Of a stretch of 53,622 bases of DNA, positions 12,684 through 50,442 are shown one piece after another. The position numbers and the translations under genes are program-made. This DNA comes from a virus. Within the stretch, counting starts at the first letter, position 1, and each line of letters starts with the position of its first letter. The DNA lies in IMG/VR virus record IMGVR_UViG_3300025012_000113, positions 1-53,622 of that record; one strand, written 5' to 3'. The notes under the pieces were generated by a model. It made no database searches. It saw only the letters and a program-made list of their open reading frames with translations, and was not told where the DNA came from.

Positions 12684-14045
12684 ATGCCGTTAATTTCTGA
12701 CAATTGGGCAGAGCAACTTGAACCTGGTCTAAGGAAGATATTTGACTTGGCCGGTAAGAAAGAAAAGGACTTCCTTGGTCTGATGTATAACGTGGAAAAC
12801 TCCACAAAAGCGCAGGAAACTAATCAGGGCATCGGTGACTTAGGGTTAATGGAAGAATGGGGAGCAACAGGGAATAAAGTTTCTTATGAGGACTTTAGGA
12901 AAGGTTTCACTTCTAACTATATTCACCGTAAATATTCTAAAGGTACACAGATTGAGCGCGAGTTAGTTGAGGACGAACAATACGGCGAGATTAAAAAGCG
13001 TGTCCGTAATCTCCGTATGGTTGAATATAGAACTATTCAGTATCATGCTGCTATACCGTTTAATAACGCTTTTAACGCATCTTATGCCGGTCCAGATGGG
13101 GTTGCTCTTTGTTCTGCATCGCACCCGAAAGCACCTGGAAGTTCTGCCGTAACTTCAAACTTCGGCACATATGCGCTGACTGCCGCTAACGTGACTACCG
13201 TTAGAAACAATATGCGTCGTTGGGAGGACGATAAGGGTAATCCATTCTTGGTTATGCCGGATACTCTGATCGTGCCGACTGAATTATTTGAACCTGCAAG
13301 GGTTATTGCCGATACTGAGGAAAAGCCTGGGACAACCGACCACGGCGTAAACGTCTGGAAAGGCGTGTTCAATGTAGTTGAATGGCCTTGGTTGACAGAC
13401 GCTAACGCTTGGTTCAAACACTAGGACCCATTATATATGTGATACCAATTAGTAATCTAATTAGTCCGTTGACAATCTTTTTCATATAATAACAGTAAAA
13501 GAAGATCCATCTAAAATATTTGACAAAAATAACTTAATTTCGCTTTGCGATGACTGTCATAGAAGTAAGGTCAATGGACATGAAAAAGATTATGAAAAAA
13601 TGTTCACAGATATAATTGCAAAGACGGTGAATTGCTGGAACCCCCTAAAACCACTATGCCACAACACGACTGGTAACGGTGAATGTGATGGCTTGAAAAG
13701 TTAGTGGATGAAACAATGGGAAATCAGCAGCCAAGCACCCGATGTAGTCAATAGAGACGAGGGCGGGTGAAGGTTCAACGACTAGGACTGAGGAAACAAT
13801 AATGTCCATAAGCGCCGTCCCCGAAAGGGATGATATAGTCTGCTCTGCATGGAAACATACAGTTAACATATGGCATGTGTGATAGCGAGAGAATGAAGCA
13901 ATTCTTAAATTGGTATTGGAGAAGGCAACCTGGATTTAAGGCAACTGAGGACTTCGACACTGAAATTGCTAAGTATGCGACAATTGCACGTTTCTCTTAT
14001 GGTTGGGATGATTTCAGCTTTATCTATGGCTGTAATCCTAGCTAG
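12684..14045 (+). CDS. major capsid protein, split by a group I intron
   Basis: Exon 1 is 12684-13414 and exon 2 is 13874-14045; joined they encode 300 residues. Exon 1 alone would stop three codons after the splice site (13424), but translation of 13875-14042 gives the missing C-terminus (MCDSERMKQFLNWYWRR ... DFSFIYGCNPS), which reads naturally after NAWF. The 5' exon ends in T and the intron in G, as group I splicing requires, and the frame is kept. The fold is probably HK97-like, with the family segment ERELVEDEQYGEIKKR and FNNAFN. A GAGGAGG ribosome site precedes it. Confidence 0.85.
13415..13873 (+). ncRNA. group I self-splicing intron in capsid gene
   Basis: 459 bases. All four conserved core elements are readable in order: P (AATTGCTGGAACCCC, 13630-13644), Q (AATCAGCAGCCAA, 13722-13734), R (GTTCAACGACTAGG, 13773-13786) and S (GATATAGTC, 13832-13840). 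P7 pairs GACTA of R with TAGTC of S; P4 pairs GCTG with CAGC; a P8-like CCC-cgaaa-GGG hairpin lies between R and S. P1 can form between exon TTGG-TT and intron GACC with the required U-G at the splice site. Exact splice ends are inferred from frame and these rules. Confidence 0.9.
13465..13704 (+). pseudogene. decayed HNH homing endonuclease in the intron
   Basis: A frame open from 13465 encodes NNLISLCDDCHRSKVNGHEK, the C-terminal half of an HNH domain (NLISLC..CH). A TAG stop lies immediately upstream and no start codon or N-terminal domain remains. The frame runs on through the intron P element to a stop at 13702, as intron-encoded HNH genes of Bacillota phages commonly do. It is read as a remnant, so the intron probably no longer homes by its own enzyme. 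Confidence 0.8.
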
Positions 14046-31675: not shown

Positions 31676-32044
31676 TTAAATATTGGTCAATGTCTTAGGT
31701 TTTTTTACACTAAAATCAAAATGGTGATATTTTTTAGATTTTTCCTGCTGCTCATATATAGATAGCAATTCTTTTCCGTTATAGACATAATCCCTAAAAG
31801 CATACATAACGCGAAGCATATTGCTAGGATATACAATGCAGTCTATATTTTTTACGTCAAAGCAAAATTGCAATACGTTTAATGATATTTTATTATAGTT
31901 AACTAAAACATCTTCTGCAATATCTCTATATGGAACATATTTATCATCGTTAGATTTATTACAGAAATCTATAAATCTAACCAAACTATCAGTTAATGTT
32001 TTAATATATGCGTCTTTATTTTGCTTATTTATTCTTATTTTCAT
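31676..32044 (-). CDS. orphan hypothetical protein, 122 aa
   Basis: ATG after GGAGATAATGGC. AT-rich and Lys/Asn/Tyr-rich compared with its neighbours, all-helical, no motif recognised. It lies just downstream of the large structured RNA on the same strand but beyond its terminator. Composition suggests a recent acquisition. Confidence 0.6.
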   Translation of the reverse strand: MKIRINKQNKDAYIKTLTDSLVRFIDFCNKSNDDKYVPYRDIAEDVLVNYNKISLNVLQFCFDVKNIDCIVYPSNMLRVMYAFRDYVYNGKELLSIYEQQEKSKKYHHFDFSVKKPKTLTNI

Positions 32045-32067
32045 ACGCCATTATCTCCTTTATACGG

Positions 32068-32568
32068 TAAAACAAAACTCCCCCGGTTAGAGAGAGTTTT
32101 GCCCGACAGGTCACACCTCACGCGCAGAAGTAACGATTACTGCCGTTAATCCTCAACGCCCTGCATTGCGTCTCTTGGACAATTGGTAGATATGCTTTGA
32201 GTGGGTAAGGAATTAAACCCTACAAATGCCTGGCACTAGCAACCATGCTCTATGTCCGAATCGAAACGGACTCACTTCCAGGTCTTAGATATAGCGTCAC
32301 TCTTTGCGCCTCCACCCAATCTACCTTCTATCCGACACAAAACCATGAATTGATTCATGTTGCAGTAATGTCGGATTTTAAATGCCCTAATCACCTAGTC
32401 CTTGATATAAACCAAGGGATGTAGTGATAGTGGCATTAATAAGCGGACAAGGACTCGAACCTTGCAATTCCATCTGCGCCCTTCCGAACCGGGACAACAA
32501 AAGCCCACGCCCACAGATTTCTCACCGTACCCCACGGTTTTAACGATACCACTCTGTCACCGCTTACT
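32068..32568 (-). ncRNA. large structured non-coding RNA, about 500 nt
   Basis: No reading frame, but dense helices. Closing stem of domain I 32438-32446/32560-32568; hairpins 32524-32538 and 32448-32464, the latter with a tRNA-like T-loop (TTCGAGT). Domain II nested stems 32381-32386/32432-32437, 32390-32394/32424-32428 and 32400-32404/32413-32417. Domain III 32330-32337/32369-32376 with inner 32344-32350/32353-32359. Domain IV closed by 32185-32191/32319-32325 and containing 32229-32233/32278-32282, a second T-loop hairpin 32254-32271 and 32205-32210/32218-32223. The 3' end is an intrinsic terminator (32074-32080/32094-32100, T-run beyond). A promoter abuts the 5' end. Size and style recall the ROOL/GOLLD class of large ornate phage RNAs; class membership is not shown. 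Confidence 0.85.
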
Positions 32569-32571
32569 CAT

Positions 32572-32600
32572 ATTATACTACCATCAAGCAGGAAAAACAA
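32572..32600 (-). promoter_or_regulatory. promoter of the large RNA
   Basis: On the minus strand TTGTTT (32600-32595), 17 bases, TATAAT (32577-32572). Transcription would begin near 32565, at the first bases of the closing stem. Confidence 0.8.
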
Positions 32601-32756
32601 CCCACGATGGCGAATAATATAATAACTCCAACAAATCTAACATGAGAGGCAGGTGACATCCTCCTTACTTCAATCTTTTTAACACATTAGCGATTTACCC
32701 GGTCGGTAGTCATTGCCCGACAGGAAACTTCTAGTAGTGTACTCAATAATTATTCC

Positions 32757-32783
32757 AAGACCTCCCGAAGGTCTTATTTTTTT
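32757..32783 (+). terminator. rightward terminator shielding the RHH operon
   Basis: AAGACCT (32757-32763) pairs with AGGTCTT (32769-32775), loop CCCGA, then ATTTTTTT. No rightward gene lies just before it. The 150 bases 32601-32756 hold no convincing gene; a 28-codon leftward hydrophobic frame there has its ATG directly abutting AAGGAGG and is doubtful. Confidence 0.8.
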
Positions 32784-32792
32784 GTCCTTTAT

Positions 32793-32825
32793 TTTGCGGT
32801 ATAAATTTACCGTTTGCGGTATAAA
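32793..32825 (+). repeat. 13-bp direct repeats, likely RHH operator
   Basis: TTTGCGGTATAAA at 32793-32805 and 32813-32825, start-to-start distance 20 bases (about two helix turns), ending 5 bases before the -35 box of the RHH promoter. Ribbon-helix-helix repressors commonly bind tandem sites like this to control themselves. Confidence 0.7.
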
Positions 32826-32830
32826 AAGTA

Positions 32831-32859
32831 TTTACTTAGCAATATAACTATTGTATAAT
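32831..32859 (+). promoter_or_regulatory. promoter of RHH operon
   Basis: TTTACT (32831-32836), 17 bases, TATAAT (32854-32859), 17 bases before the RHH start codon. Confidence 0.8.
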
Positions 32860-32876
32860 ATTCTAGGAGGTGCGAT

Positions 32877-33017
32877 ATGAAAAAATCCGTAACATATACC
32901 ATTGACGAGGAAGTTATTGAGAGATTAAAGAAACTCTCGGATAAAACGATGATACCTCAGACTAGACTTGTTCAGAAGGCTATTGAGGAATTATTGAAGA
33001 AGGAGGAAGCCAATTGA
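32877..33017 (+). CDS. ribbon-helix-helix regulator, 46 aa
   Basis: ATG after TAGGAGGTG. KKSVTYTIDEEVIERLKKLS gives the N-terminal strand and first helix, and MIPQTRLVQKAIEELLKKE the second helix of a CopG/Arc-type RHH fold. Minimal length, so it dimerises without extra domains. Tandem repeats upstream are its probable operator. Its stop overlaps the next start. Confidence 0.8.
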   Translation: MKKSVTYTIDEEVIERLKKLSDKTMIPQTRLVQKAIEELLKKEEAN

Positions 33018-49887: not shown

Positions 49888-50442
49888 CTACCTCCTAAGC
49901 ACCTTCTTAATGTGTTCCCCTATTTCTTTAGATATTTTCTCCTGCTCATCAATCAATAGAGCAAACGCCCTAAAAATACTATCTTGAAAACAGAAAACGT
50001 ATCCCTGTCTGTGCATCCATCTACAAAACTTATTTACATTGATAATAAATTCTTCTGCTCGCTGATCGGTGATTTTTTCTTTAAAAATTTCATATTCTGC
50101 CTTATTCCATCTATTAAGCAATTCCTTGATGGATTCAATTTCATTCTGCCTGTCCAATTGTTGCTGATCTAGCTTGTATTTGCAATGATCACAACTTATA
50201 GAATTCTGTTCATGGGCAAACATGTAACCTTCAAGTGTAACCGCACCCTTACCACACTTAGGACATTCGACAGGTATTTCCCATTGACCGCAGTCCCCAG
50301 CATCCCAAGCACGTTTAGGTTCACCAATAACCTTTAAGTCCATATCAAGTAAATTCAATTTCTTATCCTCAACATGATTACCGGCAACGTCACAAACAAA
50401 ACCAACTACATTGCCGCCCTCTATTATTTGCTTGCAAGTCAT
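49888..50442 (-). CDS. zinc-ribbon protein, 184 aa
   Basis: CPKCGKGAVTLEGYMFAHEQ and CDHCKYKL form a ribbon at about 60-90; the C-terminal half is helical with basic and aromatic residues. Unknown function. Confidence 0.6.
   Translation of the reverse strand: MTCKQIIEGGNVVGFVCDVAGNHVEDKKLNLLDMDLKVIGEPKRAWDAGDCGQWEIPVECPKCGKGAVTLEGYMFAHEQNSISCDHCKYKLDQQQLDRQNEIESIKELLNRWNKAEYEIFKEKITDQRAEEFIINVNKFCRWMHRQGYVFCFQDSIFRAFALLIDEQEKISKEIGEHIKKVLRR

Follow-up and report, generated by a model that had tools for sequence, protein, structure and literature searches.

What does a phage encode in half a kilobase that holds no gene? The locus that raises this question lies in a 53,622-nucleotide stretch of viral DNA (positions 1 to 53,622 of IMG/VR virus record IMGVR_UViG_3300025012_000113), which we analyzed as a whole and refer to as the window. 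An earlier sequence-only reading had described 500 bases without a gene and proposed that they form a large, modular, structured phage RNA with its own promoter and terminator, either ROOL or GOLLD or a new relative of these. Our listing of open reading frames likewise contains none of 70 amino acids or more between 32068 and 32568. The region that we delimit on the minus strand (32568..32066) agrees with the ends given by that reading to within a few bases, and the general description is supported by the results below; the proposed identity is not.

Anatomy of a 500-nucleotide RNA

The region has a minimum free energy (MFE) of -174.1 kcal/mol, compared with -149.3 ± 6.4 kcal/mol for shuffled sequences (z = -3.85), and none of 100 shuffles folded as low, as expected of the structured RNA that had been proposed. 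The anticipated intrinsic terminator is present and, by scan and by sequence, reads CAAAACTCTCTCTAACCGGGGGAGTTTTG-TTTTA on the minus strand. The promoter claimed for the RNA fared less evenly: its -10 element is perfect, but its -35 element matches at only three of six positions and was not counted by a consensus scan, and promoter-like sites in the region were as numerous as the shuffle mean. At the same place, however, the homologue in IMGVR_UViG_3300001041_000049 carries TTGATA-17-TATAAT, which matches the consensus at 11 of 12 positions and has an extended -10. Transcription from this probable promoter would begin at about the 5' end of the first tRNA-like domain, W1.

Table 1. Features assigned to the RNA locus and its upstream flank, in window coordinates.
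Feature	Position	Strand	Basis
Possible small membrane-peptide ORF, MSPASHVRFVGVIILFAIVGCFSCLMVV	32573..32659	-	Translation; AAGGAGG directly 5' of the ATG
Probable promoter, TTGTTT-17-TATAAT	32572..32600	-	Sequence; homologue with a better promoter at the same position
W1, tRNA-like domain 1	32440..32566	-	Covariance model R1, end to end; geometric detector
Stem module II, AATGCCACTATCAC...CCTTGG/CAAGG...GATTAGGGCATT	32381..32437	-	MFE fold
Conserved hairpin, TCCGACATTACTGCAACATG-loop-CATGGTTTTGTGTCGGA	32331..32375	-	88% identity over about 49 nt in the homologue, where the loop differs
Stalk under W2, GGTAGAT (32325-32319) pairing with ATCTACC (32191-32185)	32185..32325	-	Pair probabilities 0.57-1.0
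W2, tRNA-like domain 2	32198..32318	-	Covariance model R1, end to end; ensemble pair probabilities
3' stem-loops, from W2 to the terminator	32102..32184	-	MFE fold alone
Intrinsic terminator, CAAAACTCTCTC-TAACC-GGGGGAGTTTTG-TTTTA	32066..32101	-	Terminator scan; a like stem ends the RNA of the G014 homologue

The possible ORF upstream would encode a hydrophobic peptide of 28 amino acids behind a strong ribosome-binding site, and it overlaps the promoter of the RNA. A perfect 12-nt direct repeat, TTGCCCGACAGG, occurs at 32099-32110 and at 32713-32724, 614 bases apart; the two copies flank the small ORF and the RNA and may mark the insertion or exchange of a cassette.

Phages and prophages encode ROOL and GOLLD, large structured RNAs that frequently lie near tRNAs (PMC12286853), and the window RNA resembles them in being a large structured phage RNA. 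A cmscan of the whole window with all Rfam 15 families at gathering thresholds, which includes the covariance models of both, returned a single match, a group I intron elsewhere, and a scan to E = 5 of positions 31900-32900 gave two spurious weak matches only. Since no Rfam model calls the RNA and its homologues have a different architecture, built from tRNA-like modules, an assignment to ROOL or GOLLD is not supported, and we find no sequence or structure support for a new relative of either. The intron (RF00028, 61.8 bits) lies at 13529-13862 on the plus strand among structural genes, and a sister phage also has a group I intron (L119:4261-4552).

In each of two domains of the window RNA, W1 and W2, a 7-bp acceptor stem is continued directly by a T-stem of 6 bp that carries a 7-nt T-loop, and all 13 pairs can form if G-U is allowed. 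W1 has the acceptor TAAGCGG/CCGCTTA, extended by 2 bp, the T-arm GCAAGG-TTCGAGT-CCTTGT and a D-loop-like AGAGTGGTATC, together with a short hairpin (ACCGT-GGGGT-ACGGT) and a 7-bp arm with a large insert (ATCTGTG/CGCAGAT). W2 has the acceptor TGGGTGG/CCACTCA, the T-arm GTAGGG-TTTAATT-CCTTAC and an insert with a CCTGG/CCAGG arm. The D-arm, for which about 3 bp and a loop of 10-11 nt are expected, is represented by GCG/CGC in W2 and only by a weak GAC/GTT stem in W1. Of two T-loop hairpins reported by the sequence-only reading, one is the canonical T-arm of W1; the only second candidate that we could identify, GTCCG-TTTCGATT-CGGAC, has an 8-nt loop and lies within the W2 insert, distinct from the W2 T-arm.

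In the unconstrained ensemble, the acceptor, T and D pairs of W2 have probabilities of 0.92-1.0. The T-arm of W1 forms with a probability of 5% there, so W1 rests on the covariance model and the homologue; it is also the domain farthest from the family described below, with a poor D-stem. Constraining both domains to fold costs 0.9 kcal/mol relative to the MFE. Elsewhere in the RNA, the window MFE pairs the CCGAC of the conserved hairpin with other bases.

The covariance model, R1, was derived from 49 further elements of viruses and prophages, with the window and its sisters left out, and was run over a search space of 172 kb. Its best matches in the window, both spanning the model from first to last position, were W2 (32318-32198, E = 0.0011) and W1 (32566-32440, E = 0.013), values that are modest and, after a short calibration, rough; the third-ranked match in the window had E = 3.7. 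An unfiltered search of a 1-kb region gave 6.5e-6 for W2 and 7.8e-5 for W1. Outside the window, R1 matched the G014 sister (2e-17), BUCT082 (5.6e-14), Pd_22F (8.4e-14) and D6E (2.5e-8), and ordinary tRNAs (20 in L110 and several in L176) gave no match at the level of W1 and W2. A geometric detector, which was designed after W1 and W2 had been seen and hence provides supporting evidence only, recovered exactly W1 and W2 in the window and gave no match in any of 60 random genomes with matching composition. ARAGORN called no tRNA gene in the window, and neither its tmRNA search nor Rfam found a tmRNA there. We regard this anatomy, in which modules that fold separately, two tRNA-like domains among them, are strung together in the window RNA, as well supported and very probably correct.

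Relatives of the RNA and an exchangeable slot

Kin phages were located by terminase searches. Identical copies of the RNA occur in IMGVR_UViG_3300001242_000048 and 3300025010_000048, and a diverged RNA occurs in the sister phage 3300001041_000049 (G014), with an identical copy of the latter in 3300025011_000038 (G008). The relatives of the window RNA comprise only the identical copies and this one diverged form, so the covariation evidence presented below belongs to the family of tRNA-like elements and not to the 500-nt whole. DNA similarity to the window RNA was absent from named phages and plasmids, and a pattern made from the conserved hairpin gave, beyond the known phages, only coding or chance matches in IMG/VR.

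The sister's RNA is about 400 nt long and has in common with that of the window the first tRNA-like domain, the 49-nt hairpin and the terminator. It has no W2, and between the first domain and the hairpin, where the window has stem module II, it carries a DUF3800-VII RNA (RF02967, 68.7 bits by cmscan). In a more distant sister (G005), the corresponding position is occupied by an ordinary tRNA-Thr, followed by the same kind of terminator. The locus is therefore a slot that accommodates small structured RNAs and whose modules can be exchanged.

DUF3800-VII and DUF3800-VIII RNAs (RF02967 and RF03075) are, like the tRNA-like elements, small structured RNAs of the same phage loci, VII following the tRNA-like domain in the nearest relative and VIII lying downstream of it in SPbeta-like phages; their fold differs, and neither is present in the window, where RF02967 had no match. 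With the DUF3800-VII of the nearest relative (L103:3728-3819) and a weak match in MZ092003.1:15851-15948 (L246, E = 4.5e-4), this RNA adjoins a tRNA-like element in two unrelated phages. A gene for a DUF3800 protein was absent from 18 records, including that of the L103 phage. With strict filters, DUF3800-VII had no match in 790 genomes of two classes, a result of little weight as the control was also without a match.

In SPbeta-like phages, one slot lies directly after the HU gene (yonN), inside a mostly unannotated region of 1.5-1.7 kb (L391-L397, L244) in which several phages also have DUF3800-VIII. The slot holds a tRNA-like element in BUCT082, BUCT083, phi3T (KY030782.1, about 50192-50326, minus strand), SPbetaL7 and SPbetaL1, and a skipping-rope RNA (RF02924) in Goe14, according to the annotation of that record, with near-identical sequence in SPBc2 and Goe11. 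Skipping-rope RNA thus shares the slot but is not tRNA-like, and R1 had no match at the SPbeta-like skipping-rope loci. Of eight loci scanned, five (SPBc2, phi3T, Goe11, Goe14 and BUCT082) have DUF3800-VIII downstream of the slot.

A tRNA-like family concentrated in phages

A stretch of the first domain of the sister's RNA has a match at an unannotated site of Bacillus phage KLEB27-1, and the D-arm and T-arm common to both yielded a family pattern, GGTGGCGGAATNNGTAGACGC N40-70 GGTGCAAATCC. Because search patterns of this kind fix parts of the D- and T-arm, some of the conservation seen there stems from the search itself; pairs 1-5 of the acceptor and the outer pairs of the T-stem were left free. 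The pattern was found in at least 120 IMG/VR contigs, whereas 257 Gb of genome sequence from bacteria and archaea contained only 23 stretches with it, most of them from Bacillota (for example Bacillus, Paenibacillus, Levilactobacillus, Leuconostoc and Lachnospiraceae). Family members are found chiefly in phages, and these infect for the most part Bacillota; phi3T and SPbeta-like phages are among them.

Among the matches listed were 109 dissimilar elements, of which 89 form the complete acceptor stem of seven pairs and 101 the complete T-stem of six, and at acceptor positions 1 to 5 all six standard pair types occur. In an alignment of 49 sequences, 98.6% of cells are paired and 162 are double-change cells, giving a covariation score of 0.573, as against 0.155 ± 0.013 when shuffled and at most 0.114 when slid. 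The T-stem continues straight into the acceptor (7 + 6 = 13 bp), and a stem reaching more than 2 bp beyond the acceptor is rare among the 109. The variable stretch separating D-arm from T-arm measures from about 36 to over 90 bases, and a helix of at least 7 bp ending just 5' of the T-arm is found in 38% of elements and 8% of shuffles. A universal short hairpin replacing the anticodon arm is only slightly enriched (32% versus 22% in shuffles), and we make no claim of it as a family feature. Nearly all elements (108 of 109) have U at position 48; base 73 is not conserved (A in 56 of 109), CCA is not encoded, and the sequence of the acceptor is free.

The family is reminiscent of class II tRNAs (tRNA-Leu and tRNA-Ser), with which it has in common the 7-bp acceptor, U8, a 3-bp D-stem, an 11-nt D-loop, the 7-nt T-loop, a variable arm and U48, but it differs in having no recognizable anticodon arm and no CCA and, in most members, a T-stem of 6 bp. 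When about 30 loci carrying elements were scanned with Rfam models (cmscan), the elements themselves were never matched. Our data show a sequence family with covariation, phage enrichment and no recognizable anticodon arm. The genes beside the elements include no constant partner: where neighbors could be recognized, the upstream gene was in some cases a late transcription regulator (phrog_36, the commonest there, 8 of 71) and the downstream gene in some cases encoded a terminase small subunit or a DNA polymerase (a few each).

We also found a second group of tRNA-like elements, most of them marine-looking, in at least 120 contigs (L272-L350 and later loci, for example L281:3909-4012). Its members have a normal T-loop (TTC), 7 + 5 bp, the acceptor AGTCAGG in 80 of 110 and very varied inserts, with A73 in 69 of 87 dissimilar elements, and ARAGORN called 8 of the 110. 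Separately, a 155-kb virus contig with a tRNA-like element (the L197 record, G063:142604-142825) holds the sole TROVE (Ro60) match among 40 records and may represent a genuine Y RNA pair.

Possible roles of the tRNA-like RNAs

We propose that the locus specifies a single non-coding phage RNA, about 500 nt long, that contains two tRNA mimics and acts as a decoy or in docking, a statement that, taken as a whole, we lean towards with limited confidence. It would be made as one transcript, delimited by a promoter and a terminator of its own. W1 and W2 keep the 13-bp acceptor/T-arm stack of a tRNA, and W2 and the wider family the D-arm as well; with a long variable insert in the place of the anticodon arm, W1 and W2 cannot decode. 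Such an RNA might accumulate as a stable tRNA look-alike and be bound by proteins that read the elbow and acceptor of tRNAs and not the anticodon, candidates being tRNA-modifying or tRNA-attacking host or defense proteins, RNase P, and LeuRS or SerRS. During infection it could then function as a decoy or as a platform for docking, and its variable insert would select the partner or set the tuning. This decoy role is conjectured from the anatomy. An acceptor of free sequence, an unconserved base 73 and the lack of an encoded CCA argue against general aminoacylation, and the conserved parts are those seen by proteins that read elbow and acceptor, which together favor a decoy or docking function.

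RNase P recognizes the acceptor/T-arm stack, and the elements might instead be punctuation: RNase P and RNase Z would cut at the ends of the tRNA-like modules and free the other modules (stem II, the hairpin, DUF3800-type RNA) or neighboring mRNAs, the tRNA-like body being waste. Besides this substrate feature, the variation from phage to phage of the modules beside the tRNA-like domains fits such a role, as does the position of 47 of the 109 members between same-strand genes. The insert, however, is long and structured, with an enriched arm, which exceeds what a cutting signal needs, and W1 begins at about the predicted start of the transcript, so that there would be no 5' leader to cut off; we consider punctuation unlikely. 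Recognition by LeuRS and SerRS is independent of the anticodon, and A14, A15 and U48 are determinants for LeuRS. Their presence in the family core (A14 and A15 both fixed by the search pattern), the class-II-like inserts and the prevalence of A73 in the second, mostly marine group would suit a chargeable, non-decoding tRNA of Leu or Ser type that occupies the enzyme or donates its amino acid outside translation. Only about half of the first group has A73, though, its acceptor is free and its CCA not encoded, and W1 and W2 have no clear identity elements, and we judge charging to be improbable.

The nearest known RNA in form is YrlA, which likewise unites tRNA-type D, T and acceptor arms, with a basal stem in addition (PMC8394870), and W2 sits on an extra stalk. 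As a Y RNA, the element would be a tether joining Ro60 (Rsr) to an exonuclease such as PNPase. Yet the YrlA model (RF02553) matched neither the family elements nor the window, and Ro60 (TROVE) is absent from the window phage and from 39 of the 40 records, two results that weaken this reading. Most family members also lack a long basal stem, and the window RNA differs in chaining two such domains with other modules. We give a tethering role very little credence. Even less plausible to us are degenerate tRNA genes, the decaying remnants of a phage tRNA cluster: the real tRNA-Thr at the corresponding place in a sister phage and the tRNA-Leu-like D-arm of most of the family would agree with such an origin, but decay would lose pairing, whereas the 109 dissimilar elements show strong covariation and core conservation, and no loss of pairing was seen in close relatives.

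Mimics of tRNA are a known kind of RNA, exemplified by tmRNA and YrlA, but the present family is so far uncatalogued and has no Rfam model. It is easily overlooked because the standard tRNA finder makes no call and Rfam has no model for it. We found no description of such an RNA in the literature, mainly open-access, so an earlier description may exist.

Returning to the decoy or docking reading, its general form is that non-decoding tRNA mimics with a fast-diversifying insert are common to phages of Bacillota, and perhaps to many marine viruses, that they act as decoys or in docking against host factors whose targets are tRNAs, and that the window RNA is a composite of two in one transcript; this we put forward tentatively, with rather more doubt than belief. 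Because phi3T, a laboratory phage, and other SPbeta-like phages of Bacillus subtilis belong to the family, the question is testable at once in an established model system. Many bacterial defense systems cut or modify tRNAs, and phages respond with tRNAs of their own. If our proposal is true, widespread mimics without an anticodon arm would be a second phage answer, one that uses decoys rather than replacements.
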